From contig CALUVG010000017.1 in NCBI GenBank assembly GCA_944324165.1, positions 1-47,744 on the forward strand: DNA of 47,744 nucleotides. Reading direction: 5' to 3'. Under the pieces are notes generated by a model. That model worked only from the letters and a program-made list of their open reading frames with translations, did no database searches and was not told where the DNA came from. Both the position numbers and the translations under genes were made by a program. This document shows, piece by piece, positions 13,677 to 35,061 of this stretch; position 1 is the first letter of the stretch; each line of letters opens with the position of its first letter. Source of the stretch: Candidatus Gastranaerophilales bacterium (lineage in GTDB: Bacteria > Cyanobacteriota > Vampirovibrionia > Gastranaerophilales > Gastranaerophilaceae).

Positions 13677-15053
13677 TTAAACATGTTCATTTATTTTATA
13701 TAAGTCTACTCCGCCCGCAGCTTTGTACAAGCCGATTGTGGAAATTAATGAATTTATTTTGTTGGAAACTTCTTCTTTTTTCACAACCAGATAAGCCTCT
13801 TTTGCATATAATACATCCAGATCACTGGCTGCCCCAATTTCATATTTATCTTTCATAAGAGAATATGTTTGAGACTGCATTTTTAAACGCTGCGCGCTTT
13901 CATCGTAATTTTCACAAGCTTCTTTATATGCAACCAGACCGGAATTCATATCTTTTATGCCTGTAAGTATAGTTTTTTGATAACTGTTTAAAGCTTCTTC
14001 ATATTCATATTTACGCAATTTTAACATTGCAATTTTTCTTCCGCCGGAGAATAAATCTATTGAAGGCAAAATTCCTGCATTAAACATTTGAGATACGGAA
14101 TTAAATAAAGTATCCAAATGATATGCATTTAACCCTATTTGTCCGTAAATTATGAATTTCGGCAAAAATTCACGCTTTGCAACCCTGACATCAAACCCTA
14201 TACGTTTTATATTAGCTTCTTCCTGAAGATAATCCGGACGATTTTCTATAACTTCCGTACTGTATTCTGAAGGGATATTCTTCAATAGCACAAGGCTGTC
14301 ATATGTATTTCTTTCTATATTATCACCCGCGTCCGATAAATAGACACGCAGCGAATTAATTAATGTATCACGTGTTTTTATATGTGTATTTCTTTCTTCT
14401 TTCAATGAGGTCAGCAATCTTTGTTCTGCAAGCAATTCATTTATTGTACATAAACCAATTGAATATTTATCAGATGTTTTAGATACAATCTCTTCCTGTG
14501 TCTTAATAAGTTCTTCCTGTATATTAAGAAAAGTATCTGTTTTAATCAAATTATAATAATCTGCCGCGAAATCTGAAGTTAAAGCAATATATGTTGCGCG
14601 TTCAGCCTGTTTGATAATCTCTAACTGTTGTTTAACGCTTTTAGTTCTCAGACGGTTTGTCCCCCATATATCAATTTCATACCCCATTGTTAGAGGTAAG
14701 TAATAATTGTACTGCGCGTAACTGGGAATACGCATGCTTCCATACTGCTGCATTGATGATCGAAAAGCACGGGTTAATTCTCCTGAAAAGCCGAGCTGCG
14801 GCAATTCATTCGCAAACTGCATTTTAACAATTTGTTCATTTTCTTTAACTTTTAAAGCAGCATTTTTCAAATCGTAATTTTTTTCATAAAGTTTCTGCAA
14901 ATTATTTGATAAATGTTCATCGTTATAATGCGCCCACCATTGCATATTCATATATTCAATATGTTTTTCGGGTTCGGAATTTTTGTTCCCTGCAAAAGCC
15001 GGGGTAACAAGGGTTAATGTAACTAAAAAAACAATTAATAAACTTTTTTTCAT
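13677..15053 (-). CDS. Outer-membrane efflux factor, TolC/NodT-like (pump 1)
   Basis: A 458-residue TolC-superfamily protein. The signal peptide MKKSLLIVFLVTLTLVTPAFA is followed by two outer-membrane-efflux repeats rich in long helices. Its conserved bits include QFANELPQLGFSGE, YEIDIWGTNR, ENRPDYLQEEANI, VAKREFLPKF and GIYGQIGLN-type strands. It forms the trimeric channel taking drugs from the EmrA-like adaptor. There is no lipobox Cys. I start it at 15053, where the signal peptide begins, behind AAGGATAG; extending to 15098 would cross the operator. It is divergent from marR-emrA-emrB and shares the operator at 15074-15101. It is a paralogue of the protein at 36688. Confidence 0.9.
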   Translation of the reverse strand: MKKSLLIVFLVTLTLVTPAFAGNKNSEPEKHIEYMNMQWWAHYNDEHLSNNLQKLYEKNYDLKNAALKVKENEQIVKMQFANELPQLGFSGELTRAFRSSMQQYGSMRIPSYAQYNYYLPLTMGYEIDIWGTNRLRTKSVKQQLEIIKQAERATYIALTSDFAADYYNLIKTDTFLNIQEELIKTQEEIVSKTSDKYSIGLCTINELLAEQRLLTSLKEERNTHIKTRDTLINSLRVYLSDAGDNIERNTYDSLVLLKNIPSEYSTEVIENRPDYLQEEANIKRIGFDVRVAKREFLPKFIIYGQIGLNAYHLDTLFNSVSQMFNAGILPSIDLFSGGRKIAMLKLRKYEYEEALNSYQKTILTGIKDMNSGLVAYKEACENYDESAQRLKMQSQTYSLMKDKYEIGAASDLDVLYAKEAYLVVKKEEVSNKINSLISTIGLYKAAGGVDLYKINEHV

Positions 15054-15073
15054 AAATACTATCCTTAAAATTT

Positions 15074-15101
15074 TTCTTGTGCTATAATTACAGCACAAGA
15101 A
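15074..15101. promoter_or_regulatory. MarR operator overlapping a -10 element
   Basis: A perfect 10-bp inverted repeat (ttcttgtgct / agcacaagaa) with an 8-bp spacer lies between the divergent channel gene and marR. A TATAAT at 15083-15088 sits within it. A bound MarR dimer would block polymerase; spacing and position fit autorepression plus control of the channel gene. Confidence 0.75.
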
Positions 15102-15130
15102 TATTAAAAAGTAAATAAGGCAAAATAAAT

Positions 15131-15589
15131 ATGTATAGAGAATATTTAAAACACAGAATTGGTTCGCTAATTTATATAACAGGTACCCTCATACGCGGAC
15201 TGTCATCTCAAACATTTGTTGAAAAAGGGTATGATATAACCCCGGATCAATACGTAATACTATCCTTATTGCTTGAAAATGATGAAATAATGTATCAAAG
15301 ACAACTCGCAGAAATTATGTTTAAAGACAGGGCTAATATTTCCCGCATCATTGATATTATGCATAATAACGGACTTATCGAAAAAATTCCTGATTCCAAC
15401 GGAAGAAGAATATTTAAACTTATAGTAACTGAAAAGGGTAAAAAATTAAAAGACGAAATATTTCCTATGGATATAGACCTAAGAAAAATGATAACAAATA
15501 ATATAACAGAAGAAGAACTGGCTGTTACATTCAATACTCTTGAAAAAATGAATTTAAATATAAGAGATAAAGTTAAACTACAGATTTAA
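15131..15589 (+). CDS. MarR-family regulator (pump 1)
   Basis: A 152-residue winged-helix repressor: helical dimer region, ITPDQYVILSLL, then RQLAEIMFKDRANISRIIDIMHNNGLIEKI and the wing PDSNGRRIFKLIVTEKGK. MarR proteins typically leave DNA when bound by a phenolic or drug ligand. First gene of marR-emrA-emrB; 14 bp to emrA. Paralogue of 36085-36561 (shared LKDRAN-type recognition helix), yet the two proposed operators differ. Confidence 0.92.
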   Translation: MYREYLKHRIGSLIYITGTLIRGLSSQTFVEKGYDITPDQYVILSLLLENDEIMYQRQLAEIMFKDRANISRIIDIMHNNGLIEKIPDSNGRRIFKLIVTEKGKKLKDEIFPMDIDLRKMITNNITEEELAVTFNTLEKMNLNIRDKVKLQI

Positions 15590-15603
15590 AGGAGAAATAA
15601 AAA

Positions 15604-16584
15604 GTGAGTAACAAAAAAACAGAAGATATAGTAGAAATAGAAGATACCCGCCCCGAATATATGAAAAAGAGAGTTCTTGTGCCGAGTATAACTGCTGTAA
15701 TATTTTTGATTTGCGGCATATTTTATGCAATACATACAGTTTATTACAAATCCACAGATGATGCCTTTATTGAAGGTCATGTAATAACAGTTGCCCCTCG
15801 TGTATCAGGACCTGTATTAAATTTAAATATTGAAGATAATCAGGAAGTTAAAAAAGGCGATTTTTTACTTGAAATTGATCCGGAAGATTACGCGGCAAAA
15901 TTGCGTGAAACCTCTGCCAAACTGGAAGAGGCAAAAGCATCACTTGTAAATACGGAAAATCAGGTTACAAGAAGTTTATCCGATTTAGAATTTGCACAGG
16001 CAGATTATGACAGGTACTCCAAAATGTATGCCAAAGGAATAGCCTCAAAACAGGATTACGATGCAAGCTCAAATAAACTTACCGCCGCTCAATCCAACAG
16101 TAAATCCGCACAGGCAAGATATGACGAAATTACAGCTTCAATTAAAAGACTGGAGGCTGAAGTAAAACAGGATGAATTAAATCTGTCTTATACCAAAATT
16201 TACGCTTCTGCTGACGGCAGGATTACAAACCGTACTGTGGAACAGGGAAATTATGTTCAGGTTGCCCAACCTTTATTTGCCATAGTACCTGAGAAAATGT
16301 GGATCGTCGCAAACTTTAAAGAAACTCAGCTTGCCAACATGAAACCGGGTCAGCCGGTTAAAATTAAAATTGATACTTATGGAGGTAAAAAATTTGAAGG
16401 CAAAGTTGACAGCATACAGCGTTCAACAGGCGCAAGAGCAAGTCTTTTCCCGCCGGAAAATGCTGTAGGCAGTTACGTAAAAATTGTTCAAAGAGTTCCT
16501 GTAAAAATTGTATTTACTGAAGATATTTCTAAATACAATATAGTACCGGGGATGTCTGTTGTGCCGGAGGTTAAAGTTAAATAA
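15604..16584 (+). CDS. emrA: EmrA/HlyD-type membrane fusion protein (pump 1)
   Basis: A 326-residue periplasmic adaptor. Short cytoplasmic tail, one membrane segment (about residues 25-45), then STDDAFIEGHVITVAPRVSGPV (first half of lipoyl domain), a helical hairpin ~95-200, the second lipoyl half YTKIYASADGRITNR, and the beta barrel (VVANFKETQL, PGQPVKI). The start is GTG at 15604, 8-9 nt after AAAGGAG. Its stop overlaps the emrB ATG (TAATG), so the two are coupled. It would link the inner-membrane pump to the channel encoded at 13677. Confidence 0.93.
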   Translation: MSNKKTEDIVEIEDTRPEYMKKRVLVPSITAVIFLICGIFYAIHTVYYKSTDDAFIEGHVITVAPRVSGPVLNLNIEDNQEVKKGDFLLEIDPEDYAAKLRETSAKLEEAKASLVNTENQVTRSLSDLEFAQADYDRYSKMYAKGIASKQDYDASSNKLTAAQSNSKSAQARYDEITASIKRLEAEVKQDELNLSYTKIYASADGRITNRTVEQGNYVQVAQPLFAIVPEKMWIVANFKETQLANMKPGQPVKIKIDTYGGKKFEGKVDSIQRSTGARASLFPPENAVGSYVKIVQRVPVKIVFTEDISKYNIVPGMSVVPEVKVK

Positions 16585-18128
16585 TGCCAAAAGTTGTATA
16601 TAAACATACCCCTGCCCCGTTATGGCTGGTTGCATTTTCAATACTTTTGCCGACATCTTTTTCCTGTCTTGCGACATCTGCCACTAACGTTGCAATACCT
16701 CATATTTCAGGATATTTCGGTTCAACAATTGATGAGGCAAACTGGATTATAACATCATATATGATTGCAAATGCCTGTTTAATCTTGATGTCCGGATGGC
16801 TGGAAAATCTTTTGGGACGAAAACGTTTTTTGAAAATTTTTATCGGGATTTTCACTCTTGGTTCATTAATCTGTGCAATTGCTCCTAACCTTAACTTGAT
16901 GGTACTTGGAAGACTAATTCAAGGGATTGGAGGAGGACCAATGACACCTTTATCGCAGGCAATTCTTCTTGCAGCATTTCCTCCGGACAAAAGAGGCATT
17001 GCAATGAGTTTGTATGGAATTGCCGTAATGGTATTCGCAATATTAGGACCTACATTTGGCGGATTTATCGTTGACAACGCGGATTGGCAATGGATTTATC
17101 TTGTAAATATTCCGGTTGGAATTCTTTCAATTTCAATGGTGCATGCAAATATTGAAGAACTTAAGACAAGAAAGGAAATTAAAAAAACAGATTATCTGGG
17201 AATGATTTCTCTTGTTTTGTGGCTTTTATCAATGCAGATTGTTCTCGATAAAGGGCAGCAGTATAATTGGTTTGACTGCGCATGGATATCATGGCTTTCA
17301 GGATTTTCAGTGTGTATGTTTGTATTTTTTATTATTAGAGAATTAGAAAGCAGTGCTCCGTTAATTAATTTAAGACTGTTTAAAGACAAGAATTTTTTAA
17401 TAGGTACAATCTTAAGTGCATCTGTTAACATGATAGTATTCTCTTCAATAGTACTTGTGCCGCAATTTCTACAAAATATGATGGGATATACGGCAATGTT
17501 AAGCGGCTATGCCCTTGCCCCCCGTATAATTTCATGTGTGTTTATGATGATTGTAATAAATCCGCTGATGAAACTCTTTGATAACAGGGTCTTAATAGCA
17601 ATTGGATTTTTCTTCTTAGGGATTTCAATTTTATTCTTTATGAATTTAAATCTCAGTGTATCATTTATTTATATAGCAATTCCACAGGTTCTTATGGGGG
17701 TTGGCGTAATTATGACATTCATTCCTATTTCTTCACTGGTATTAGGAACTTTGCCTAAGACAGAATTAACAAACGGAGCAAGCTTACATAACCTATGTAA
17801 AAGTGCAATGACAGCGGTTATAGCATCTGTAGCCTCAACCCTTGTGGCAAGACACAGTCAGATGCATCAGGTTTATCTGGTTGATAACCTTTCTAACTTT
17901 AATCTGATATTTCAGCAAAAATTTGCCTCTTTAGTGCATACATTTATGGCAAATGCATCTAGTTCATTTGCGACAATTAAAACAAATTCGTATATGTACA
18001 AATCCCTGCTTACCCAATCCCGTTTAATGGCTTATGTGGATGTGTTTGAAATATTTGCATTTATTGCATTTTTACTTATACCGCTGGCATTCTTATTCAA
18101 AACAGATACCTCTCAAAAACAGGCATAA
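16584..18128 (+). CDS. emrB: EmrB-type drug:H+ antiporter, DHA2 family (pump 1)
   Basis: A 514-residue major facilitator with about 14 membrane helices, the DHA2 pattern. Motifs: ATNVAIPHISGYFG in helix 1 region, WIITSYMIANA, LGRKRF (motif A-like), GRLIQGIGGGPMTPLSQA, and motif C-like GPTFGGFIVDN. It extrudes hydrophobic drugs or toxins using the proton gradient. No terminator hairpin is seen after it before the recombinase region. Confidence 0.93.
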   Translation: MPKVVYKHTPAPLWLVAFSILLPTSFSCLATSATNVAIPHISGYFGSTIDEANWIITSYMIANACLILMSGWLENLLGRKRFLKIFIGIFTLGSLICAIAPNLNLMVLGRLIQGIGGGPMTPLSQAILLAAFPPDKRGIAMSLYGIAVMVFAILGPTFGGFIVDNADWQWIYLVNIPVGILSISMVHANIEELKTRKEIKKTDYLGMISLVLWLLSMQIVLDKGQQYNWFDCAWISWLSGFSVCMFVFFIIRELESSAPLINLRLFKDKNFLIGTILSASVNMIVFSSIVLVPQFLQNMMGYTAMLSGYALAPRIISCVFMMIVINPLMKLFDNRVLIAIGFFFLGISILFFMNLNLSVSFIYIAIPQVLMGVGVIMTFIPISSLVLGTLPKTELTNGASLHNLCKSAMTAVIASVASTLVARHSQMHQVYLVDNLSNFNLIFQQKFASLVHTFMANASSSFATIKTNSYMYKSLLTQSRLMAYVDVFEIFAFIAFLLIPLAFLFKTDTSQKQA

Positions 18129-18186
18129 TTTTAGTTTTTGGAGTAACAATAGTTTTTAATGCTTATAGTTGCATTTAAAGTCTCCA

Positions 18187-18226
18187 TTTATCAATAATAA
18201 TATTGGTCACAATTATGATTGATAAA
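18187..18226. promoter_or_regulatory. 40-bp imperfect palindrome before the recombinase
   Basis: tttatcaat (18187-18195) and attgataaa (18218-18226) form a perfect 9-bp inverted repeat; including inner bases, 16 of 20 positions per arm are complementary. It ends 15 bp before the recombinase ATG. It could be an autoregulatory operator or an accessory binding site for the recombinase. Confidence 0.5.
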
Positions 18227-18241
18227 TAGAAAGGAGAAAAC

Positions 18242-18784
18242 ATGACAACTGTAGAACCTATTAGAAAAAAAGAAGACATTAAAAAAGTGGAGGAAGTGCT
18301 TAGAAAACAAAACAAAAGAAATTTGTTGATGTTCACAATCGGCACAAATTGCGGCTTACGTGTTTCGGATATTCTTGCGCTTAATGTAGGGGATGTTATG
18401 GGGAAAAATTACATCCAAATTATTGAAAAAAAGACCGGAAAGTTTAAAAAATTTCCCATCAATGCAAAATTAAAACCAATGTTTGCCGAATTTACCAGAG
18501 GTAAAAGTGCGGAGGAACCTTTATTCAAAACAATATTCCACAACAGGCTTGAGAGATTTGCCGCATATCATATAATACGTGACGCTTGTAAAGCTGCGGG
18601 GCTGGAAGAAAAGGTAGGAACACATACAATGCGAAAAACTTTTGGGTATCACCATTATAAAAAATTTAAAGATGTAGCAATGCTTCAAAAAATTTTTAAC
18701 CACTCAAGTCCGCAAATAACCCTGAGATATATAGGAATTGAACAAGATCAAATTGATGAAAGCTACGCAAACTTCATTTTATAA
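18242..18784 (+). CDS. Minimal tyrosine recombinase
   Basis: A 180-residue protein consisting of only the catalytic domain of the phage integrase/XerCD family. Catalytic residues are visible: R40 (GLRVSD), a Lys in KKTGKFKK (about 64-70), H128 and R131 (HTMRKTFG), H154 (NHSSPQ) and the nucleophile Y163 (LRYIG). The usual N-terminal core-binding domain of ~100 residues is missing; a strong AAAGGAG precedes the ATG, so the short form is genuine. Family members cut and rejoin DNA at short inverted arms. Its stop is 87 bp from an 18-bp inverted-repeat pair enclosing a promoter-sized segment, so the likely job is DNA inversion that switches the glycan operon. No phage or transposon genes accompany it. 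Confidence 0.92.
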   Translation: MTTVEPIRKKEDIKKVEEVLRKQNKRNLLMFTIGTNCGLRVSDILALNVGDVMGKNYIQIIEKKTGKFKKFPINAKLKPMFAEFTRGKSAEEPLFKTIFHNRLERFAAYHIIRDACKAAGLEEKVGTHTMRKTFGYHHYKKFKDVAMLQKIFNHSSPQITLRYIGIEQDQIDESYANFIL

Positions 18785-18870
18785 TTTTGTATAAATTCTA
18801 TACTAAAATTATAAGTGGATTTATTTTGAGAATCGAAAAAGATTAAAAATAATTTTTTAAAATTAAATCT

Positions 18871-19061
18871 CGACAATTTTTATCCAAAATGTGATGTAAT
18901 CGTAAAAGTCTTGATTTAAAAGGATTTGAGGTAACATAAAAATCTTATAGTCAGATAGCATAACAAAAGTTAATAAATAGCCAAATTCCGTTTTTTTGTG
19001 TTATTATTAATATAGATAAAGGATTAAAATTTTATAATCACATTTTGGATAAAATGTGCCG
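18871..19061. repeat. Inverted repeats flanking a putative invertible promoter segment
   Basis: Left arm 18871-18895 and right arm 19037-19061 are inverted copies: 18 bp perfect (ttttatccaaaatgtgat at 18878-18895), with matches continuing unevenly outward (cgaca / tgccg ends). They enclose 141 bp (18896-19036) with no gene. The right arm ends 35 bp before the first glycan gene; the left arm starts 87 bp after the recombinase. The whole 18785-19095 gap holds only this. The arrangement matches invertible promoters of surface-polysaccharide loci. Confidence 0.75.
18957..18984 (-). promoter_or_regulatory. Candidate promoter inside the invertible segment
   Basis: On the minus strand TTGGCT (18984-18979), 16-bp spacer, TATGCT (18962-18957) with an extended TGT just before it. 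In the given orientation it points away from the glycan operon (OFF). A weaker plus-strand option is TTGATT-18-CATAAA near 18911-18940, so the current state is not certain. Confidence 0.4.
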
Positions 19062-19095
19062 AAAATTTTTAAAAATGTTATAAACAGGGTGATTA

Positions 19096-19614
19096 ATGGA
19101 AAATCAAATTTTAAATATTGCATATATAGAATACCTCAATACACGGGAAGAACTGAATTATTTTAAAGATTTAATAACAAAAACTAATAAAAACATTACT
19201 CATAAGATTAACTTATATTTAATATCAAATCTTGCAACAAACGAAGATATTGAAGAATTAAAAAATAATGTAAATGAAATTTTCACATACAATTCATTTA
19301 ACGCATCAATATTTGATAATTTAGCCTGCAAAATACAACTGGGCATTGTGCCCTCAATACTTGCTGAAACCATTTCACAGGCAACCATTGAATTTATATC
19401 AAGAAATATACCTGTTCTCTGTGGTGATAAAGGCGGAGATAGTGAACTTTGCACAAGCAATTTGTTCACTTTTAATACCGAAGATATTAACGATTTTGAA
19501 AGTAAAATTTCAAACTTTATAAATCAACCGGAATTATTAAATGAATACCGGCAAAATAAACACGAACTAACTGATACGTTTATTAATGACTCACTATTGC
19601 TTGCAGCAGAATAA
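19096..19614 (+). CDS. N-terminally truncated GT4-like glycosyltransferase fragment
   Basis: 172 residues resembling only the C-terminal Rossmann half of a GT4 (glycosyl transferase group 1) enzyme: NSFNASIFDNLA, then QLGIVPSILAETISQATIEF, RNIPVLCGDKGGDSEL, and FNTEDINDFESKISNFI. That half normally binds the nucleotide sugar; the acceptor-binding half is absent. An in-frame TGA immediately precedes the ATG, so it cannot extend upstream. It is the first gene after the inverted repeats. It may be a relic left by rearrangement, or a subunit working with another protein. The Shine-Dalgarno is weak (AGGGTGA). Confidence 0.6.
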   Translation: MENQILNIAYIEYLNTREELNYFKDLITKTNKNITHKINLYLISNLATNEDIEELKNNVNEIFTYNSFNASIFDNLACKIQLGIVPSILAETISQATIEFISRNIPVLCGDKGGDSELCTSNLFTFNTEDINDFESKISNFINQPELLNEYRQNKHELTDTFINDSLLLAAE

Positions 19615-19638
19615 TATATCCGGAGAGACCATTAAAAA

Positions 19639-20754
19639 ATGAATGCTAAAAAGAAAAATTTAATAGTTGGAGCAGGATTTGCCGGCGGAACAATAGCCAA
19701 TTTAATTGCGGACAAACTAAATGAACAGGTTGTCATAATTGATAAAAAATCACATCTTGCAGGAAACAGCCATGATTTTCGCGACGAAAACGGTATAATG
19801 ATTCACAAATACGGTTCGCATATTTTTCACACGAACAGTGAAAAAGTATGGAATTTTATCAAAAAATTCGGCAGTTTTAATCAGTATATGCATAAAGTTT
19901 ATGCATTGATTGACGGGATAGAAACTACTATTCCATTCAATTTTAATACTTTATATAATGTTTTTCCGCAAAAATTAGCAAACAAAATTGAAGAAAAACT
20001 TCTGCAAAAATTTGAATATAATTCTAAAGTTCCTATTCTGGAATTTTTAAAACAGGATGATAAAGATTTAAAATTTCTAGCAAATTATATTTACGAAAAA
20101 GTTTTTCTTCATTACACAGCCAAACAATGGAATGTTAATCCCAAAGATATTGATAGTGCTGTAACTGCCAGAGTACCAGTATATTTATCAAAAGACAACA
20201 GATATTTTCAAGATAAATATCAAGGCATTCCCCTGGAAGGCTATACAAAACTTGTTGAAAACATGTTGAATTCACCGAATATAGAAATTCGCTTAAATAC
20301 AAATTTTAAAGATATCAATGAACAATTTGAGCGCATATTTTATACAGGTTCGATTGATGAATTTTTTGATTACAAATTCGGAATACTTCCTTATAGAAGT
20401 GTAAACTTCAAATTTGAAACACACACAAAAGATTTCTATCAACAAAATTCCGTAATAAATTATCCATGCAATTACGATTTTACCAGAATTCATGAATTTA
20501 AACATTATCTAAATGACAAATCTGACAAAACCGTAATTGCAAAAGAGTATTCAGAAAATTTTGAATTAGAAAAAAATGAACGATATTACCCCGTTTTAAA
20601 TGACCAGAATATTAACCTGTATAATAAATATTTTGCAGAGGCAAAAAAATTAAATAATGTATATTTTCTCGGCAGACTTGGAGACTACAAATACTACGAC
20701 ATGGATAAAGCAATATTGAGGGCAATAGAAATGTTTGAGGAGGTTTGTTTATGA
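19639..20754 (+). CDS. glf: UDP-galactopyranose mutase
   Basis: A 371-residue flavoenzyme converting UDP-galactopyranose to UDP-galactofuranose. The FAD-binding start is VGAGFAGGTIAN, then HLAGNSHDF, KYGSHIFHTN, and PFNFNTLY. Active-site features include QWNVNPKDI, the ARVPVYLS segment and GRLGDYKYYDMD near the C-terminus. Length is normal. It implies galactofuranose in the glycan. The gene ends in ATGA overlap with the next glycosyltransferase. Confidence 0.96.
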   Translation: MNAKKKNLIVGAGFAGGTIANLIADKLNEQVVIIDKKSHLAGNSHDFRDENGIMIHKYGSHIFHTNSEKVWNFIKKFGSFNQYMHKVYALIDGIETTIPFNFNTLYNVFPQKLANKIEEKLLQKFEYNSKVPILEFLKQDDKDLKFLANYIYEKVFLHYTAKQWNVNPKDIDSAVTARVPVYLSKDNRYFQDKYQGIPLEGYTKLVENMLNSPNIEIRLNTNFKDINEQFERIFYTGSIDEFFDYKFGILPYRSVNFKFETHTKDFYQQNSVINYPCNYDFTRIHEFKHYLNDKSDKTVIAKEYSENFELEKNERYYPVLNDQNINLYNKYFAEAKKLNNVYFLGRLGDYKYYDMDKAILRAIEMFEEVCL

Positions 20755-21839
20755 ATTCGGATATAGCAGTTTCTATATTAGTCCCGGTATATAATGTTGA
20801 AAAATATCTGCCGCAATGTCTGGATAGTTTAATAAATCAGACGTTAAAAAATATTGAAATAATTTGCATAAATGATGGCTCAACCGATACAAGTCTAAAA
20901 ATTTTAGAAAATTATCACCAAAAAGATACCAGAATAAAAATAATTGATAAAGAAAATTCCGGCTATGGTGCTTCTATGAATCTTGGATTAGATGCCGCAT
21001 CCGGCGAATATATCGGCATCATAGAACCTGATGATTTTGCCGACAGTACAATGTTTGAGTCTTTATACAAACTTGCAAAAAAATTTGATGCAGAAATTGT
21101 TAAATCTGATTTTTTCCAATATACAACATCCAATAATCAATCAAGAAAATCCGGTATTATTGACAAAAATTTTGCGAATAAATTCTTAAATGCAAAAAGC
21201 TATCAAAATTTATTCAAAATGCCGCCTAGTATCTGGAGCGCGATTTATAAAAATGAATTTATCAAAAGAAATAATATCAGATTTTTAGAAACACCCGGCG
21301 CAAGTTATCAGGATACTTCTTTTGCATTCATAACACTTTCTCTTGCCGAAAAAATTGTACTCACAGACAAAGCATTTTTATACTACAGGCAGGACAATGA
21401 AAATTCTTCAGTAAATTCTAAAGAAAAAGTTTTTCTTATCTGCGGAGAATACAATAAAATTACTGATTTTCTCAATCACAATCCTGAAATTAAAAAGTTT
21501 GTAAACACACCAAAACTCATCAAACAATATTCAACTTATCTGTGGAATTTGAAAAGAATTGATGACAAATTCAGAGACAATTTTATAGATGTCTTTTCTG
21601 ATACGTTTAAAAAATATTTTAACGACGGTGAGATTACTGAAAAATTTTATAAAAAACACGATAAAAATTTATTCAATCTGCTGCTAAATGACAAAGAATT
21701 ATTTAAAAAATCTATGGAAAAAATTATTGAAAAAGAGAATAAAAAAATGCAAAGAAGAAAAATGTTTTCAATACGCATTAACCCGTCAAGAAGAATAAGC
21801 ATTGTGCTGTTTGGCAAACAAATTTTGGAGGTGAAATAA
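20751..21839 (+). CDS. GT2 family glycosyltransferase
   Basis: 362 residues. GT-A domain in the first ~220 residues: SILVPVYNVEKYLPQCLDSL, INDGSTD, GYGASMNLGLDAASGEYIG and the metal-binding PDDFAD. The C-terminal ~140 residues are Lys-rich helices without membrane segments. Transfers a sugar from a nucleotide donor in the cytoplasm; donor unknown (UDP-Galf is possible given glf next door). I use the ATG at 20751 with GAGGAGG 7 nt upstream; it overlaps the glf stop as ATGA. The upstream in-frame TTG overlaps that Shine-Dalgarno. Ends TAATG with the next gene. Confidence 0.9.
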   Translation: MNSDIAVSILVPVYNVEKYLPQCLDSLINQTLKNIEIICINDGSTDTSLKILENYHQKDTRIKIIDKENSGYGASMNLGLDAASGEYIGIIEPDDFADSTMFESLYKLAKKFDAEIVKSDFFQYTTSNNQSRKSGIIDKNFANKFLNAKSYQNLFKMPPSIWSAIYKNEFIKRNNIRFLETPGASYQDTSFAFITLSLAEKIVLTDKAFLYYRQDNENSSVNSKEKVFLICGEYNKITDFLNHNPEIKKFVNTPKLIKQYSTYLWNLKRIDDKFRDNFIDVFSDTFKKYFNDGEITEKFYKKHDKNLFNLLLNDKELFKKSMEKIIEKENKKMQRRKMFSIRINPSRRISIVLFGKQILEVK

Positions 21840-23191
21840 TGGATTCTATTAACCCGAAAGTATCAATTATTCTGCCGACATATAATGGTGAAAAATATAT
21901 AAAAACAGCGATTAATGCAATTCTTGCACAAACCTATAACAACTGGGAACTAATCATAGTTGACGATTGTTCTACAGATAATACAAACAAAATCATAAAT
22001 GAATTTGCACAAAAAGATTTACGTATAAAAGTTATAAGAAATGAAGTTAATAAAAAAGTTGCCGCATCATTAAATATCGGATTTTCACATGCAGCAGGAG
22101 ACTATTACACCTGGACATCGGATGACAATTATTATAAGCCTGCAGCAATTGAAAAAATGGTTAAATTTCTACAGAAAAATCCTGATTACGGAATGGTATA
22201 TGCGATAAGTGATATGATTGATGAAAATGGCAAAAAATATGCCGAATGGGGAGCAACTCCGGCAGATGCAGAAAAAATATTTGATGCAAATTATATCGGC
22301 GCCTGCTTTCTTTACACAAAAGGAGTTGCGAAAAAAGTTGGTGAGTATTCTCAAAATCTTACTTTAGTTGAAGATCATGAATACTGGATTCGTATGAAAT
22401 TAGCCGCAAAAATTACAAACATTCCGGAAAGCCTTTATGTTTACAGATTACATTCAAAAAGTTTGACAGGACAGAATACTTATACCGGCAGAATTAAAGA
22501 TTTTGATATGATGTTCAACTATGAAAAGGTCTATGTCGAGAAGTTTCCTGAACTTCAACAATACATGAATTCTTTTATGAAAGTCAGAAGAATTTTACGC
22601 CAAAAAGAACTCGTTTCAATAAAAGAATTATTGAAATATTTAAACAAAAAAGATTTGTATAAAGAACTAAAAACTTTCTACAGATTTCATAACGAAAATT
22701 ACTATCTGAAATATATTTTACAGCTTGGCGGTATATATTTAATCAAAGGCATAAAACAATACATTAAATGCAGAAAAAATCGCAAAAATTTTTATGAATT
22801 AAGCATAAGAAGATACGGCGATGACAGAGGTTATTTAACCACAATAGAAAATACAGATATTCCTTTCAAAATCAAGCGAGTATATTATCTTTCGGATGTT
22901 TCAAAGGGCAAAGACAGAGCACATCATGCGCACAAAAAATCTTCGCGTGTGCTGTCAGCAATCAGAGGGTCTGTGAGAGTAAAATTGGTTGACGGATTGA
23001 ACAATAAAACAGGCGAATTTGTTCTCAACAATCCGTCCCGCGCCGTCTATTTTAACAGAAAAGTCTGGTGCGAATTGTCAGATTTTTCAGATGATGCAGT
23101 TGTACTGGCATTGGCGGATCAGCCTTATTTTGAAAAAGAATATATAAGAAATTATGACGATTATAAAAAATTCATCGGGAGAGCAAAATAA
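21839..23191 (+). CDS. Fusion: GT2 glycosyltransferase + FdtA/WxcM-like ketoisomerase cupin
   Basis: 450 residues in two parts. Residues 1-~310 are a GT2 transferase (SIILPTYNGEKYI, VDDCSTDNT, ASLNIGFSHAAGDY, metal site TSDDN, and LVEDHEYWIRM). Residues ~320-450 are a cupin resembling the dTDP-sugar 3,4-ketoisomerases FdtA/QdtA and WxcM: RRYGDDRGYLTTIE, RAHHAHKKSSRVLSAIRG with the H-x-H pair, and DQPYFEKEYIRNYDDYKKFI. In stand-alone FdtA that His pair lies in the active site; the family's usual Gln after HAHK is an Arg here. No rmlA/rmlB or aminotransferase is nearby, so the substrate is unclear. Both parts are full-looking, so this is a true fusion. It starts by TAATG overlap and ends directly against capG. 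Confidence 0.85.
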   Translation: MDSINPKVSIILPTYNGEKYIKTAINAILAQTYNNWELIIVDDCSTDNTNKIINEFAQKDLRIKVIRNEVNKKVAASLNIGFSHAAGDYYTWTSDDNYYKPAAIEKMVKFLQKNPDYGMVYAISDMIDENGKKYAEWGATPADAEKIFDANYIGACFLYTKGVAKKVGEYSQNLTLVEDHEYWIRMKLAAKITNIPESLYVYRLHSKSLTGQNTYTGRIKDFDMMFNYEKVYVEKFPELQQYMNSFMKVRRILRQKELVSIKELLKYLNKKDLYKELKTFYRFHNENYYLKYILQLGGIYLIKGIKQYIKCRKNRKNFYELSIRRYGDDRGYLTTIENTDIPFKIKRVYYLSDVSKGKDRAHHAHKKSSRVLSAIRGSVRVKLVDGLNNKTGEFVLNNPSRAVYFNRKVWCELSDFSDDAVVLALADQPYFEKEYIRNYDDYKKFIGRAK

Positions 23192-24307
23192 ATGAAAGTA
23201 ATGACAATAGTCGGAACACGACCGGAGATAATAAAACTTGCAGAAACAATTAAAGAATTGGATAAATATACCGACCATATTTTAGTGCATACGGGTCAGA
23301 ATTTTGATTACGAATTGAATGAAGTATTTTTCAAGGATTTAGAGTTGAGAAAACCGGATTATTTTATGAATGCGGCAGGCAAAAATGCTGCACAAACTAT
23401 TGCAAATGTCATTGCAAAAACTGATGAAATTTTAGAAAAAGAAAATCCCGATGCAATTTTGTTATACGGTGATACAAATTCATGTCTTTCAATAATTGCA
23501 GCCAAGCGTAGAAAAATTCCAATCTTTCACATGGAAGCCGGCAACAGATGTTTTGATCTTCGTGTTCCGGAAGAAATAAACCGCAAAATTGTCGATCATT
23601 TATCAGACATAAATCTTGTATTAACAGAACAGTCAAGAAATTATTTAGAACGCGAAGGCATAGCACCGGAGACGATTATAAAAACAGGTTCGTCAATGAA
23701 AGAATTGTTTTTAAAATACAAAGAAAAAATCGAAAATTCTAACATTTTAGAGCAGTTAAATTTGCAAAAAGGTAAATATTTTGTAGTAAGTTCGCATCGG
23801 GAAGAAGTGGTTGACAGTCCGGAAAATTTAAAAGATTTGATAGAATCGCTGAACGGATTAATTGAAAAATATAATTATCCAATAATTTTTTCAACACACC
23901 CGCGGACAAAAAAACAACTCGAAAAAATCGCGGATTTAAAGGCGGATGAGCGGATAATTTTTTCAAAACCGTTTGGATTTTTTGATTATATTTCTTTGCA
24001 AAAAAATGCAGCGTGCACACTCTCTGACAGCGGCACAATTACTGAAGAGAGTTCAATTTTAGGATTTCCTGCGGTAACTATAAGAAACGCGCACGAACGT
24101 CCTGAAGGCAATGATGAAGGCACACTTGTAATGTGCGGTTATAAAAAAGCAAGAGTAATGAAAGCGGTAGAAGTTGTGATGTCACAACACAGAGAAACAT
24201 CAATGCATATAGTGAAGGATTATGAGGCGGATAATGTATCGAAAAAAGTTGTCCGCACAATACTCAGCTACATAGATTACGTAAATGAAAAAGTATGGAG
24301 AAAATAA
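23192..24307 (+). CDS. capG: UDP-HexNAc 2-epimerase, CapG/FnlC/WbjD type
   Basis: 371 residues of the WecB superfamily. VGTRPEIIK, HTGQNFDYELNEVFFKDLEL, GDTNSCLS, HMEAGNRCFD(x)RVPEE, SSHREE, and DSGTITEE are all present. The NFDYELNE-FFKDLELRKPDYF block is typical of the CapG/FnlC/WbjD branch that epimerises C2 of UDP-2-acetamido-2,6-dideoxy-L-talose (to L-FucNAc) or L-rhamnose configuration (to L-QuiNAc), rather than WecB proper. It would be the last step after the CapE-like enzyme (28810) and the reductase (29850). The ATG directly follows the previous stop. Confidence 0.88.
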   Translation: MKVMTIVGTRPEIIKLAETIKELDKYTDHILVHTGQNFDYELNEVFFKDLELRKPDYFMNAAGKNAAQTIANVIAKTDEILEKENPDAILLYGDTNSCLSIIAAKRRKIPIFHMEAGNRCFDLRVPEEINRKIVDHLSDINLVLTEQSRNYLEREGIAPETIIKTGSSMKELFLKYKEKIENSNILEQLNLQKGKYFVVSSHREEVVDSPENLKDLIESLNGLIEKYNYPIIFSTHPRTKKQLEKIADLKADERIIFSKPFGFFDYISLQKNAACTLSDSGTITEESSILGFPAVTIRNAHERPEGNDEGTLVMCGYKKARVMKAVEVVMSQHRETSMHIVKDYEADNVSKKVVRTILSYIDYVNEKVWRK

Positions 24308-24309
24308 AA

Positions 24310-25551
24310 ATGAAATGGAAAAACAAAGGTCATGAATTTGATGAACTAGGAGCTTTATTTCAAAAAAATTCTGAAATACTTGTAATAGGGAATAAAAATG
24401 ATGCCGAAAAAATATACAAACAATTGGAATTTTTAAATACAAAAATTTCCACCTTTACTGATATCAATATTTTGGATTTAGGACACGGATTAAAAAAAAG
24501 AATTAAACAAATTAAAACTAAATTTTTAGAAAATATTTTAAAAAATAAAACAATTATACTTGCTAATTCAATTGCCTACAATAACCGTCTGATAACAATA
24601 TTAACGAAACTCAAATTAAAAGAAAAAATTAATTATTTTAGAGAAGAAGAATTCTTCAACAAATTTTTAAGTATTTATGCAGTTTATGTTTCGGATAAAG
24701 TATATTTTCCTAGTAATTGTTTTATATGTACAACGGTTTGTACGCTTAACTGCCGCGATTGTTTAAATTTTGCGCCATATGACAAACATAAAACTCATTA
24801 CGATTTAGAACGTTTAAAAAGTGATGTAGACACCTATTTCAAATGTATTGATAGAGTTGGTCTATTTCATATTTCAGGCGGCGAACCTTTTTCATATCCA
24901 CACATTAAAGAGTTAATTGAATATATAGGTGAAAACTATAGGGACCAAATAGATATTTTGGGTACAGTAACAAATGGAACCCTATTACCATCTGATAATT
25001 TATGTAAAGTCTTACAAAAATACGATGTAAGGGTAGAAATTGACGATTATACAATATCTTTACCGCATTTAAAAGAAAATATAAATAAATTAAAAAATAA
25101 ACTTACTCAATTCAACATTGATATACAAACAAATATTGCAACAACTTTTTATGAACTATTCCCTCCAAAAGAAATTACACCACAAGAAAACTTATGTAAA
25201 AAATTTGATGCATGTAATCAAATTTACCAGGAGTTAAAAAATGGTAAATTATATACTTGTAATTGGGCAGAATTTGCTTATCAAGCAGGTATTTTGACTG
25301 AAATAAACGATTATTATGATCTTAATAATTTTATTGCTACCCAAGACAAGAAAGAACTCATTGAATACAGATTAGGTTTTAATGCAAAAGGCTATGTAGA
25401 TTTTTGCAGGTATTGCAATGGTAATCAAAATATTAATAAACATTTTGTACCTGCTGCAATTCAGGCAAAAGGATATCTTGAATGGGATATAAATAATCCT
25501 ACCGAAGTTAGAGAAACTAACACAATTCAGCAAGGAGAAAGACATGAATAA
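24310..25551 (+). CDS. Radical SAM enzyme 1 with auxiliary cluster, in glycan operon
   Basis: 413 residues. Residues ~1-135 form an extra N-terminal region with a Rossmann-like start (EILVIGNKNDAEKIY). The radical SAM core follows: C144-TLN-C148-RD-C151 for the 4Fe-4S cluster, then ISGGEPF (SAM amino-group site). C-terminal cysteines (LCKKFDAC, LYTCNWA, FCRYCNG) fit a Twitch/SPASM-like auxiliary cluster. Chemistry unknown: in a sugar locus it might deoxygenate, epimerise or modify a sugar or peptide acceptor. I use the ATG at 24310 because GGAG lies 9 nt upstream; an ATG at 24295 lies inside capG. Overlaps the next radical SAM gene by 8 bp. Confidence 0.85.
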   Translation: MKWKNKGHEFDELGALFQKNSEILVIGNKNDAEKIYKQLEFLNTKISTFTDINILDLGHGLKKRIKQIKTKFLENILKNKTIILANSIAYNNRLITILTKLKLKEKINYFREEEFFNKFLSIYAVYVSDKVYFPSNCFICTTVCTLNCRDCLNFAPYDKHKTHYDLERLKSDVDTYFKCIDRVGLFHISGGEPFSYPHIKELIEYIGENYRDQIDILGTVTNGTLLPSDNLCKVLQKYDVRVEIDDYTISLPHLKENINKLKNKLTQFNIDIQTNIATTFYELFPPKEITPQENLCKKFDACNQIYQELKNGKLYTCNWAEFAYQAGILTEINDYYDLNNFIATQDKKELIEYRLGFNAKGYVDFCRYCNGNQNINKHFVPAAIQAKGYLEWDINNPTEVRETNTIQQGERHE

Positions 25552-26584
25552 TTTTATATTTAAAAAAGTTAAATCAGAAGATAGCAAAAAAATTTACATA
25601 TGCGGAATTAATGTGCATACAACAAAATATACTCCAACAAGTAAGAAATATTATTTATTTGGTATTCAATACAAAAATAAAAAACAGAAAACAAACCTGA
25701 TGGCAATGCTTAATGAAAGACTCGCAAAAGTTGAACAATTTTGTATAAACTCAACATATAACCGCACTAAAACTCAACCATATATACGACAAATTGCAAT
25801 TATGGTCGCTGAGCATTGTAACCTAAATTGTTATGGATGCAGTCATTGTTCACCACTTGCAGAACCGGAATTTTTAGATATTAACAGTTATGAACGCGAT
25901 CTGGAAAGGCTTGCGCTGCTTGCGTTTCAGCAAGGGGGGGGGGGCTTAGGTATTGATATTATTCAACTTCAGGGGGGTGAACCATTATTACATCCTCAAT
26001 TTTTAGATTTTATACCTGTTACCAGAAAATATTTTCCAGATTCCGAAATTACAATAACTACCAACGGAATTTTATTAGAGCAACAACCGGATATTTTTTG
26101 GGAAACACTTCATAAATATAACGTAGAAATCACGCCTACTATATATCCAATAAAAATAAACTGGGAAAACATAAAAAAGAAGGCTGATGAAAAAGGAGTA
26201 ACAATAGATTTGACTTTTATCGCAGAAAATATATTTCAAGAAATAAAAACAAGCTGGCATTGGCCATATGATCTAAAAGGTCACCAGGAACCTGTATACA
26301 ATTTTACTAAATGTATGGTTGGTAATAGCTGTGTGGGATTATCTAACGGAAGATTATATACATGCGTTTTGCCAATGGCAATAAAACATTTCAACAAATA
26401 TTTTGGTACAAATATCAAAGTTTTAGACTCTGACAGTATTGATATATATAAAGCACAAAGTTTCCAAGAAATACTGGATTTTCTAGCGAAACCAATGGCA
26501 TTTTGCAGATATTGCAAAATTGACGAAAGACGTTTTGACCTACCATGGTCACGCTCTAAAAAAGATATAAAGGAATGGACTTAA
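25544..26584 (+). CDS. Radical SAM enzyme 2 containing a G11 tract
   Basis: 346 residues. Core cluster C92-NLN-C96-YG-C99 (EHCNLNCYGCSHCSPLAEPE), SAM-binding LQGGEPLLHP, and C-terminal cysteines matching enzyme 1 (CMVGNSC, GRLYTC, FCRYCKIDERRF), so probably a Twitch-type auxiliary cluster and paralogy with the gene before it. The first ~80 residues are a basic beta-rich extension. Codons 131-134 (GGGG) come from 11 consecutive G in an AT-rich genome, located in a loop between the cluster and GGEP motifs; the present length keeps the frame open. One base gained or lost would truncate the enzyme, so it is probably phase-variable. AAGGAG precedes the ATG. Confidence 0.87.
   Translation: MNNFIFKKVKSEDSKKIYICGINVHTTKYTPTSKKYYLFGIQYKNKKQKTNLMAMLNERLAKVEQFCINSTYNRTKTQPYIRQIAIMVAEHCNLNCYGCSHCSPLAEPEFLDINSYERDLERLALLAFQQGGGGLGIDIIQLQGGEPLLHPQFLDFIPVTRKYFPDSEITITTNGILLEQQPDIFWETLHKYNVEITPTIYPIKINWENIKKKADEKGVTIDLTFIAENIFQEIKTSWHWPYDLKGHQEPVYNFTKCMVGNSCVGLSNGRLYTCVLPMAIKHFNKYFGTNIKVLDSDSIDIYKAQSFQEILDFLAKPMAFCRYCKIDERRFDLPWSRSKKDIKEWT
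25934..25944 (+). repeat. G11 homopolymer in a coding sequence
   Basis: Eleven consecutive G. The next longest G runs I noticed are six long (25972-25977 and in the Nif3-like gene). Tracts of this kind are classical slipped-strand contingency sites, notably in Campylobacter and Helicobacter glycan genes. Confidence 0.9.
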
Positions 26585-26606
26585 ATTACTTATAAAAGGA
26601 GAGTAA

Positions 26607-28796
26607 ATGACACCAAAAATAACAGTTATAATGCCTGCATATAATAGAGCCAATTTGATATCTAAATCAATTGAAAGTGTTCTTAATCAAACATACAAAG
26701 ATTTTGAATTTTTAATTCTTGATGACGGTTCAACCGACAATACTAAAGAAGTCATTGGAAAATATTTATCTGATCCAAGAGTCCAATACCTTTATCATGA
26801 AAATCAGGGAGAGGCACAAACTGTTAACTGGGGATGGTCCTTAGCAAACGGTGAATATTTTACTCAGGTAAATTCCGATGATACTATTACCCCTGATTCT
26901 TTTGAAAAAATGGTCGAAGCTATGGACAAACATCCCGATAAAGTTCTTGCATATCCTGATTTTAATTTCATTGATGAAAACGATAATATAATTTCTGTAA
27001 CAAAATCTCCTGATTGGAATTTTAAACAGGCATTATCTAATTTTGCCTGTTATGCCGCATCTGCTGGGACTTTTATTAGAAGAGAGCCGTTTAAAGAATG
27101 GAAAACTATTAAAAGAGGGCGTTTTAAACATATTAACGATATAGAAATGTATTGGGATATGGCATTGGTAGGCGACTTTTTACATGTCCAAGAAGTGCTC
27201 GCTAATTGGCGCGTTCACAGCGGACAAATATCGCACGACAGATATAATTCCATTCCTGAAATTGAAGTATGGTACAAATATTATTTTGAAGAAAAAAATC
27301 TGCCGGATGAAATTAAAAACATTCAGCCGACCGTCAGAAAATCCATTCTTAACTATTATATTTCGCTGATTGAAAACAGTAATCTCTCAAAAAATGAAAA
27401 ACGACAGAGAAAAATCCCTTATTTAAAAGAATTAAATCTTCCATGTTATGAATTTAACTGCCTGCAAATTGGGGACAATGATTTAATCGGCAACAAATTT
27501 AACGGGCACGATCTGCATTTATATCTGCGTGAAAAAAATATTGATGCAAATCATATCATAATGATGAAACTTTCTGATGATGAAAATACTTTTCTTTTTC
27601 TCAGAACAAAATCAGAAAAAAAATTTACAGAAAGTTTAATCTTTTCTGATCTGTTTTTGGATGCTGATATTATACATTTGCATCTAATTCATAATACACT
27701 CTTTGATTTAAATTATTTACCAATAATTACGGCAATGAAACCTACTGTTATTACATTGCACGATCCATATTTTTTGGGCGGACATTGCATTCATCATTTT
27801 GATTGCGAAAAATGGAAATCATTCTGCAAAGATTGTCCAAATTTAGATTCACCATTTCCGCTTAAAAGAGATTCTTCTGCTTTTGAATTTTCAATGAAAA
27901 AACATATTATTCAAAATTCAAATATCACAGCAATTGTTGCATCTAAATGGATGGAAAATAAAGTTGCACAATCACCGATCTGGCAGGGGAAAACAATACA
28001 CAGACTGCCATTCGGTATTAATCAGGATATTTTTAAACCGGAGGACAAAAATAAAATACGAAAGGATTTAAATATTCCTCAAGATGCAACCGTTCTAATG
28101 TTTAGAAGTGATCTTTCTCCATTCAAAGGACTTGATTTAATAAAAAATGCACTGAAAAACTTAAAAACAGATAAAAAAATTGTCCTGTTAACTGTAGCCC
28201 AAAAAGGCAAACTCAAAGAATTAAAAAACAAATTCGACATAAGGGAATACGGCTGGTTAAAAGATGATAAACTACTCGCAAAACTTTATCAGGCTTCGGA
28301 TTTATTTCTTATGCCTTCAACTCAAGAAGCCTTTGGAATGATGGCTATTGAGGCTATGAGCTGCAAAGTTCCGGTGCTTGCACTTACTGGAACGGCACTA
28401 CCGGATGTAATAAATTCTCCACAATGCGGGCTTGCTGTTGATGCAGATAAATTTTCTACAGAATTACAAAGACTGATTAATACTCCAGAAGAAATAAAAG
28501 AACGCGGAGAAAAATCATTAACTTTTGCAAAAGAAAATTACGACAAAGAAGTCTACATCAACAAAATGATAAACATTTACAAAGAAGTAATCGCAAATCA
28601 TAAAACTGATGCAGAAACCGAATTTGTATTTGAGCAATTGAATAAATATGCCAAAAATTCAGAGTTAAGAAAAAGATTTAAACTGGCGGACAATAAATTA
28701 TGGAGGCTTTTCTACAAACTTACTTACCGTATCTATTTGAAAAAACGATACGGCAGAAAAGTTGTACACGAAAAATATGACAAAAAATATTTATAA
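26607..28796 (+). CDS. Two-domain glycosyltransferase, GT2 + GT4
   Basis: 729 residues. N-terminal GT2 domain (1-~260): TVIMPAYNRANLISKSIESV, LDDGSTDN, GEAQTVNWGWSLANGEY, metal site NSDDTI. The C-terminal GT4 domain (~290-690) has LHDPYFLGGHCIHH with a Cys-rich CKDCPN stretch, RLPFGINQDIF, SPFKGLDLI, and the donor-binding STQEAFGMMAIEAMSCKVPVLAL. One protein could thus add two successive sugars. The last ~35 residues are basic and may touch the membrane. Shine-Dalgarno AAAGGAG before the ATG; 13 bp to the next gene. Confidence 0.9.
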   Translation: MTPKITVIMPAYNRANLISKSIESVLNQTYKDFEFLILDDGSTDNTKEVIGKYLSDPRVQYLYHENQGEAQTVNWGWSLANGEYFTQVNSDDTITPDSFEKMVEAMDKHPDKVLAYPDFNFIDENDNIISVTKSPDWNFKQALSNFACYAASAGTFIRREPFKEWKTIKRGRFKHINDIEMYWDMALVGDFLHVQEVLANWRVHSGQISHDRYNSIPEIEVWYKYYFEEKNLPDEIKNIQPTVRKSILNYYISLIENSNLSKNEKRQRKIPYLKELNLPCYEFNCLQIGDNDLIGNKFNGHDLHLYLREKNIDANHIIMMKLSDDENTFLFLRTKSEKKFTESLIFSDLFLDADIIHLHLIHNTLFDLNYLPIITAMKPTVITLHDPYFLGGHCIHHFDCEKWKSFCKDCPNLDSPFPLKRDSSAFEFSMKKHIIQNSNITAIVASKWMENKVAQSPIWQGKTIHRLPFGINQDIFKPEDKNKIRKDLNIPQDATVLMFRSDLSPFKGLDLIKNALKNLKTDKKIVLLTVAQKGKLKELKNKFDIREYGWLKDDKLLAKLYQASDLFLMPSTQEAFGMMAIEAMSCKVPVLALTGTALPDVINSPQCGLAVDADKFSTELQRLINTPEEIKERGEKSLTFAKENYDKEVYINKMINIYKEVIANHKTDAETEFVFEQLNKYAKNSELRKRFKLADNKLWRLFYKLTYRIYLKKRYGRKVVHEKYDKKYL

Positions 28797-28809
28797 AGGA
28801 GAGAATAAA

Positions 28810-29850
28810 ATGGATTTTAGTGACAAAATACTTTTGATTACGGGAGGTACCGGCTCTTTCGGACAAAAAATGTTGAATTACTTTATCAACAATACAAATA
28901 TTAAAGAAGTTAGAATTTTTTCTCGCGATGAAGAAAAACAAGACCGCATGAGAACTGTTTTCAAAGACCAAAGAATTAAATACTACATAGGCGATGTCAG
29001 AAACTACAGAAGTATTCTTGAGGCAACGAAAGGTGTTGATTTGTTGTTTCATGCCGCCGCATTAAAACAGGTTCCGTCCTGCGAATTCTATCCTATGGAA
29101 GCCGTTGCAACTAATGTTCTCGGTGCAAGTAATGTAGTGAACGCCGCGGTTGAAAATGAGGTCAGAAATGTCGTAGTTTTATCTACTGACAAAGCTGTTA
29201 ATCCGATAAATTCCATGGGTATGACAAAAGCGCTTATGGAAAAAATTATGGTTGCAAAATCAAGAAATACTGACCAGAATAAAACAATACTTTCTGCAAC
29301 CAGATACGGTAATGTTATGGCGTCCCGCGGTTCTGTTATACCATTATTTATTAAACAGTGCAAAGAAAACAAACCGATAACAGTTACCGATCCAAATATG
29401 ACAAGATTTTTGATGTCTTTAGAAGAATCCGTTGAACTTGTTCTATTCGCATTTTCTCATGCAAACAGCGGTGATATTTTCGTACAAAAAGCTCCGGCAT
29501 CAACGATTTATGATCTTGCTCTTGCTGTTAAAGAACTCTTTAACCCGAATGTGGAAATAAAAATCATCGGCACAAGACACGGTGAAAAAGCTCACGAAAC
29601 TCTGGTTGGTAGAGAAGAAATTATCAAAGCGCAGGATATGGGTAAATTCTACAGAATTCCGGCAGATAACAGAGATTTGAATTACGATAAATATTTCATC
29701 GAAGGCAACGAACAAATTTCTAAAAAAGAAGAATACACATCCGCCAACACAACAAGATTAACTAAAGATGAAGTAATCAAAACATTATTGAAACTCGATT
29801 ACATCCAGAAAGAATTACACTCAAAAGAATATGTAGGAGTAGCAAAATAA
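28810..29850 (+). CDS. capE: UDP-GlcNAc 4,6-dehydratase/5-epimerase, CapE/FnlA/WbjB type
   Basis: 346-residue extended SDR. NAD site TGGTGSFGQ at residues ~10-18, IFSRDEEKQDRMR, HAAALKQVPSCE, catalytic STDKAVNPINSMGMTKALMEK (here with Met instead of the common Tyr, as in this subfamily), ATRYGNVMASRGSVIP, FVQKAPASTI and GTRHGEKAHETLV-(x)-REE. The last motifs separate CapE/FnlA/WbjB from FlaA1/PseB. It removes water and inverts C5 of UDP-GlcNAc to give the 4-keto-6-deoxy-L-sugar. The start at 28810 follows AAAGGAGAG; an in-frame ATG at 28762 lies inside the preceding gene. Overlaps the reductase by 1 bp. Confidence 0.92.
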   Translation: MDFSDKILLITGGTGSFGQKMLNYFINNTNIKEVRIFSRDEEKQDRMRTVFKDQRIKYYIGDVRNYRSILEATKGVDLLFHAAALKQVPSCEFYPMEAVATNVLGASNVVNAAVENEVRNVVVLSTDKAVNPINSMGMTKALMEKIMVAKSRNTDQNKTILSATRYGNVMASRGSVIPLFIKQCKENKPITVTDPNMTRFLMSLEESVELVLFAFSHANSGDIFVQKAPASTIYDLALAVKELFNPNVEIKIIGTRHGEKAHETLVGREEIIKAQDMGKFYRIPADNRDLNYDKYFIEGNEQISKKEEYTSANTTRLTKDEVIKTLLKLDYIQKELHSKEYVGVAK

Positions 29851-30719
29851 TGACAAAAATTGCAATACTCGGAAAAACAGGAATGCTCGGAAATGCTGTT
29901 TTAAAAGCATTTTCTAACACGGATTTTGAAATAATTGCAACAACGAGAAAAGAACTTGATGCACAAAAATCCGCCCCAAAAGATATTGAAAATATTTTGC
30001 ATGGCTGTGATTACGCGATAAATTGCATCGGTATAATTAAGCCCTATATTCACGATGAAAATTCATTTGAGGTTAAACGTGCAATTGAAGTTAATGCACT
30101 TTTTCCTCACAAACTTGCTGCCGTTTCAAAAATAACCGGAACAAAAGTTATTCAAATCGCAACTGATTGTGTTTATGACGGACAAAACGGTTTATATGAT
30201 GAAAATTCAAAACATAATGCGACAGATGTTTACGGTAAAACAAAAAGTTTGGGAGAAGTTCAGCAAGAAAACTTTCTAAACCTGCGTTGTTCAATTATAG
30301 GGCGGGAAAAAAAATCTTATTTATCACTTCTTGAATGGTTTTTAAATCAAAAGCAAAATGCAGAGGTAAAAGGCTTTAAAAATCATCTATGGAACGGAGT
30401 TACAACAGATACATTCGCTGATATCTGCATAGGGATAATCAAAAATGACATATTCTTTAGCGGCACACAGCATGTTGTGCCTGCTGATATTGTTTCAAAA
30501 TATCAAATGCTCAAAATATTTGCAGATGTTTTTGACAGGCAAGATATAAAAATTACGGAAGTAAATACCGAAATAAAAATTGACCGGACACTGTCCACAA
30601 TAAATAAAGAAAAAAATACAAAAATCTGGCAGGCGACTCATTACAAAGCTGCACCAAAAATCGAAGAAATGATTAGAAATATTTCAGCGACCGTACATTC
30701 ATGCCGGAATATAAACTAA
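29850..30719 (+). CDS. RmlD-like SDR, probable UDP-4-keto-6-deoxy-HexNAc reductase
   Basis: 289-residue SDR. NAD(P) site ILGKTGMLGNAV, NCIGIIKPY, QIATDCVYDG with the catalytic Ser/Thr region, and the active-site Y-x-x-x-K in VYGKTKSLGE. Between capE and capG-type genes it fits the 4-keto reduction. CapF/FnlB/WbjC (L-FucNAc route) are longer (~370 residues) with a C-terminal cupin, which is missing here; the shorter RmlD form resembles the reductase of the UDP-L-QuiNAc route (WbvR). I therefore lean to UDP-L-QuiNAc, without proof. Starts by TAATG overlap with capE. Confidence 0.82.
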   Translation: MTKIAILGKTGMLGNAVLKAFSNTDFEIIATTRKELDAQKSAPKDIENILHGCDYAINCIGIIKPYIHDENSFEVKRAIEVNALFPHKLAAVSKITGTKVIQIATDCVYDGQNGLYDENSKHNATDVYGKTKSLGEVQQENFLNLRCSIIGREKKSYLSLLEWFLNQKQNAEVKGFKNHLWNGVTTDTFADICIGIIKNDIFFSGTQHVVPADIVSKYQMLKIFADVFDRQDIKITEVNTEIKIDRTLSTINKEKNTKIWQATHYKAAPKIEEMIRNISATVHSCRNIN

Positions 30720-30741
30720 ATAATTGAATAAGGAGAAAAAT

Positions 30742-33385: not shown

Positions 33386-33388
33386 ATT

Positions 33389-34951: not shown

Positions 34952-34992
34952 CTTTCCTCCAACTTGTTCCAAAATCCGGTATGATAAAATAA

Positions 34993-35035
34993 AAAGCCGG
35001 TTTATCTAAAATATTAAATTTTAAAATCCGGCTTT
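34993..35035 (-). terminator. Terminator-like hairpin between emrA and the emrB pair
   Basis: Inverted repeat aaagccgg / ccggcttt with a 27-nt AT-rich loop that can pair further. On the minus strand it is followed by TTTTTATTTT. It sits inside an otherwise plain operon, suggesting partial termination (attenuation). Confidence 0.6.
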
Positions 35036-35061
35036 CGGTTAAAAATATCATTTCAGAAATT

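Follow-up and report, generated by a model that had tools for sequence, protein, structure and literature searches.

A probable invertible promoter beside a tyrosine recombinase gene at the head of a glycan operon in Gastranaerophilales

A recombinase gene next to perfect inverted repeats

The locus analyzed here raises the question whether a short gene-free segment between a recombinase gene and a glycan operon acts as a promoter switch and, if so, in which state this copy was assembled. What is known of the Gastranaerophilales, a group of gut bacteria, comes mainly from metagenomes, and the stretch of DNA under study (the window, 47,744 bases) represents the entire contig C17 of a 2.05-Mb genome, which consists of 55 contigs and is 99.96% complete. 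We consider the locus very probably to be a phase-variation switch, in which the local recombinase flips a promoter segment heading the glycan operon. That a promoter here is invertible and served by a local recombinase had already been proposed in the preliminary description of this DNA, and this proposal is supported by inversions at homologous loci and by a family-wide association of recombinase genes and repeats.

The gene at 18242-18784 (plus strand) encodes a tyrosine recombinase of 180 aa that consists of the catalytic domain only (PF00589, E=7e-23), as previously noted from the sequence; the Pfam search detected no N-terminal domain. All catalytic residues (R-K-H-R-H-Y) are present, and R40, K64, K67, H128, R131, H154 and Y163 are retained in 97 of 97 active-type homologs. 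This protein is the presumed invertase of the adjoining segment. Three paralogs are encoded on contigs C2 and C14 of the same genome, and each of the four recombinases is accompanied by its own, differing repeat sequence.

Downstream of the gene, perfect 18-bp inverted repeats (18878-18895 and 19037-19054), short repeats of the kind by which invertons are recognized, enclose 141 bp that contain no ORF of at least 80 aa, just as the preliminary description had it; the arms reach 31 bp at 84% identity if mismatches are allowed. The distance to the operon, given there as 35 bp, had to be corrected: the first start codon is located 41 bp past the 18-bp arm and 28 bp past the 31-bp arm. The inverted repeat of the window is not a chance occurrence. 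First-order Markov shuffling of 18785-19095 yielded a perfect 18-bp arm once in 3000 trials, and in the 400 kb of the same genome on which the background rate rests just four perfect pairs of 17 bp or more were found 80-300 bp apart, three of them directly downstream of the three paralogous recombinase genes. Another perfect inverted repeat, of 17 bp (AGTGAACAGTGAACGGT) with 112 bp inside, was noticed at L175:9416-9561 (contig C5 of G000), with no recombinase of the same family alongside.

A conserved promoter core and the state of the assembled copy

A common promoter core of about 49 bp was recognized in 40 of 57 segments by a model search on both strands, which was seeded with a consensus read off the aligned segments and reached a log-likelihood of 351, compared to 124-141 in five shuffles. 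Its consensus is roughly TAACATTTTTTAATAAA, followed by a T-rich stretch and then by TTTGTGTTATTATA with an extended -10. The core points to the operon in 14 of the 40 segments (ON) and away from it in the other 26 (OFF). After training that excluded the window and its ortholog, the model gave its highest score on either strand of the 47.7 kb to 18960-19008 on the plus strand (15.5 bits); this match points into the operon and includes the extended -10 TGTTATTAT at 18999-19007. The segment of the window thus holds a promoter predicted from sequence, as expected for an inverton. Since the plus-strand core is the best match of the whole window, the assembled copy is most likely in the ON state.

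The preliminary description had arrived at the opposite state, with a promoter at 18984-18957 on the minus strand that points away from the operon and would drive it only once the segment is inverted. The motifs of this candidate are indeed there (TTGGCT-16-TATGCT with TG), and the TTTTGTTATG stretch on this strand is also found in L031, the nearest ortholog. Its score of 8.0, however, is close to the shuffled mean (7.2, sd 2.1), for which reason we judge it the weaker candidate, and the family core model favours the plus strand, giving the minus strand of the segment -6.9 bits. That the copy at hand is the OFF form of the same switch is therefore improbable, though it is the best of the alternatives considered here. 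Generic sigma-70 scoring, trained with 194 upstream regions from this genome, separated the orientations poorly in this AT-rich DNA, and the family core model was used instead.

Recombination sites and inversion at homologous loci

Alignment of 51 elements at their centres revealed a 6-bp centre TAnnCA between an outer and an inner half-site. The two arms of one element agree to 96-100% in the centre, whose middle bases differ from element to element, and to only 53-96% by position in the outer halves; as the elements were chosen by arm identity, the high identity of the centres is partly built in, which does not apply to their contrast with the outer halves. Tyrosine recombinases depend on half-site recognition and on homology at strand exchange, and this contrast matches what such an enzyme needs. 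In the window, the repeat search and the site model of the 51 elements place the left recombination site at 18871-18896 on the plus strand (outer half 18871-18880, centre TATCCA 18881-18886, inner half 18887-18896), including the left 18-bp arm, and the right site at 19036-19061 on the minus strand (inner half 19036-19045, centre 19046-19051, outer half 19052-19061), including the right arm. By analogy with the homologous inversions L113/L116 and L062/L063, the segment predicted to invert lies between both site centres and comprises about 159 bp (18887-19045).

Comparison of related genomes for inverted segments, a check already suggested in the preliminary description, revealed an exact inversion at these two homologous loci. 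L113 and L116, which derive from two MAGs, are 99.3% identical over 12 kb, and the 129 bp between their repeats are 100% identical but reversed; the core model calls L113 ON and L116 OFF. Between L062 and L063, which share 93.8% identity over 2.8 kb, a 189-bp stretch is exactly inverted. In this second pair the two sites differ in their half-sites; inversion has swapped the inner halves and left the outer halves with their flanks, which indicates a crossover inside the shared centre TTAGTATT. Apparently three recombination sites instead of two are present at L062:2077-2423 and L063:1299-1645, and also at L072 and L075; the inversion between L062 and L063 used the second and third of them.

Among recombinase copies located at most 200 bp from a contig end, this end is on the downstream (switch) side in 16 cases and on the upstream side in two (sign test p=0.0013), as counted from listed coordinates that for part of the copies show only one of the two contig ends. 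An excess on the switch side is expected if both orientations coexist, but contig ends could alternatively arise where strains differ in the downstream operon.

L031, the nearest ortholog of the window's locus, shares its orientation, and both orientations are seen at the two homologous loci. The earlier proposal of an ON/OFF phase-variable operon thus holds for the family as far as inversion, evident from sequence comparison, is concerned, whereas for the window we infer from its relatives that the segment inverts. One might argue that the sites were used formerly and that this particular copy, of which no inverted form is known, inverts no more. We regard such a fossil segment as quite unlikely: the recombinase is intact with all its catalytic residues, the 18-bp arms are perfect, and although the site centres differ between the window and L031 (TATCC versus TAATC), the two arms still agree within each locus.

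Building on the site architecture, exact inversion, crossover position and conserved promoter core apparent in the relatives, we propose the following course of events for a functioning switch. The recombinase encoded at 18242-18784 would bind both inverted core sites, and strand exchange inside the 6-bp centres would flip the segment of about 159 bp. One dominant promoter, with an extended -10 and a conserved element upstream, would lie in this segment; in the assembled orientation it points right and would drive the glycan operon (ON). After flipping, the promoter would face the recombinase gene from its 3' end, leaving the operon silent (OFF); we speculate that antisense transcription in this state might damp the recombinase. 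In the window, inversion of the locus by its own recombinase, activity of the predicted promoter and a change in expression would all be expected under this model. The site and promoter models also define the exact junctions that can be sought in public reads.

Distribution of the recombinase and its repeats

At an E-value limit of 1e-20, 198 of the 288 sampled family genomes (about two thirds) and 34 of 41 genera contain relatives of the recombinase, with up to 11 copies per genome; such relatives also occur in four sampled genomes from three other families of the order. An inverted repeat with a score of at least 13 is located within 450 bp downstream of 60 out of 111 distinct recombinase copies, many of these repeats with 125-150 bp between the arms, and almost none were found upstream. 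About half of the copies show no detectable downstream repeat, which is partly due to contig ends and distance limits. Judged by these counts, recombinase genes and repeats go together throughout the family. Glycan genes are frequent as the first gene behind an element: among 47 elements, this gene matches a GT2 glycosyltransferase in 12 cases and sugar-nucleotide enzymes or Stealth proteins in others, and in seven it is a recombinase relative. If these elements are promoter switches, this Gastranaerophilales lineage would generally vary its surface by DNA inversion.

The notion that the repeats merely serve a mobile element for attachment or integration, with the recombinase as its integrase and without promoter switching, draws on closer phage relatives in Streptococcus prophages (52% identity) and on a few relatives on contigs classed as viral, but is scarcely credible given the pair of inverted sites that enclose a short segment with a promoter, the exact inversions in relatives and the 82% DNA homology to the ortholog L077, which runs unbroken through recombinase, segment and first operon genes (18183-24300). 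The window's own segment was not found in viral contigs, nor was a switch-like repeat found in the DNA downstream of one Streptococcus prophage relative.

One sub-family of elements, with a site like TTACAATTTAACCATTTTGTAAG (L006, L074, L075, L100, L129, L136, L143, L151, L158 and L161), stands ahead of a small HTH-like gene, and several of its loci contain a further active recombinase that has a switch of its own, possibly forming a two-stage cascade. Every alignable member of this sub-family has the same orientation.

A catalytically dead recombinase paralog in switched operons of relatives

In many switched operons of relatives, the first gene encodes a recombinase paralog of about 175 aa that has lost catalytic residues (L055, L061, L071, L112, L115, L134, L152 and L184-L213). 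Of 32 proteins of this dead type, all lack histidine II and 29 lack arginine I, and 18 have phenylalanine in place of the tyrosine; arginine I, histidine II and the tyrosine are retained in 97 of 97 active-type proteins. At about 20 of the 27 loci examined, the gene of the dead paralog is located 21-81 bp past an inverted repeat, behind a promoter core, or both. The operon of the window does not include such a gene.

If the switch model holds, the dead paralog would be expressed in the ON state only. It is conceivable, although we put this forward tentatively and as a hypothesis only, that at some loci other than the window the ON-expressed dead paralog serves as a feedback or directionality factor on inversion within a family-wide phase-variation system. 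To our knowledge, feedback by a dead recombinase paralog is not a known kind of control for invertible promoters.

Comparison with known switches

Promoter inversion ahead of surface polysaccharide operons would be shared with the capsule promoters of Bacteroides (Mpi, Tsr). Mpi is a serine invertase that acts on several promoters; in contrast, the recombinase of the window is of the tyrosine type (PF00589) and adjoins its switch, and the sites of its paralogs differ in sequence. No arrangement of the Mpi type, with a serine invertase serving several promoters, was found at the window locus.

The proposed switch of the window resembles the fim system of E. coli (FimB/FimE) in that a short catalytic-domain tyrosine recombinase is encoded beside a promoter-bearing segment with short inverted repeats. 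It differs from fim in the length of the segment, about 159 bp compared to 296 bp (PMC5903667), in the glycan operon that follows it and in the presence of one recombinase at the locus. In addition, the recombinase is only 26% identical to FimB and stays below the NCBIfam cut-offs for FimB and FimE (NF007370 and NF007371; 24.5 and 32.7 bits versus 221 and 222). RecV of Clostridioides difficile is likewise a tyrosine recombinase combined with short inverted repeats ahead of surface genes; the sites on which it acts, however, lie elsewhere in the genome (PMC5903667; PMC7446863), unlike the pairing of one recombinase with each switch found here. A survey of invertons in a defined gut community concluded that nearby recombinase genes are generally not placed where the invertons could regulate them, with one possible exception (PMC11892184).

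Within the open-licence PMC literature, we found no description that ties Gastranaerophilales to invertible promoters in substance; the single co-mention occurs in a survey of the goose gut. The switch of the window would thus be a FimB-like invertible promoter, of a known kind, in a lineage for which that literature yielded no such description.

The glycan operon and its flanks

The operon behind the presumed switch comprises eleven genes on the plus strand (19096-31788, delimited by ORFs and Pfam matches). The count of 11 co-directional genes in the preliminary description was accurate, and Pfam backs glycan functions for most of them. The products are a GT4-like protein, a UDP-galactopyranose mutase, a GT2 protein, a GT2-FdtA fusion, a UDP-GlcNAc 2-epimerase, two radical SAM proteins, a GT2-GT4 fusion, a Polysacc_synt_2 protein, an RmlD-like protein and one protein without Pfam match.

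Two MarR-HlyD-MFS efflux clusters in opposite orientation flank the glycan region (13677-18128 and 31805-36561). At L077, from the relative G002, the left cluster is missing between homologous flanks. A stretch of the window within a glycosyltransferase gene (27465-27999) is 97% identical to L077 at the DNA level, well above the 82% seen over 18183-24300, and may reflect a recent exchange.
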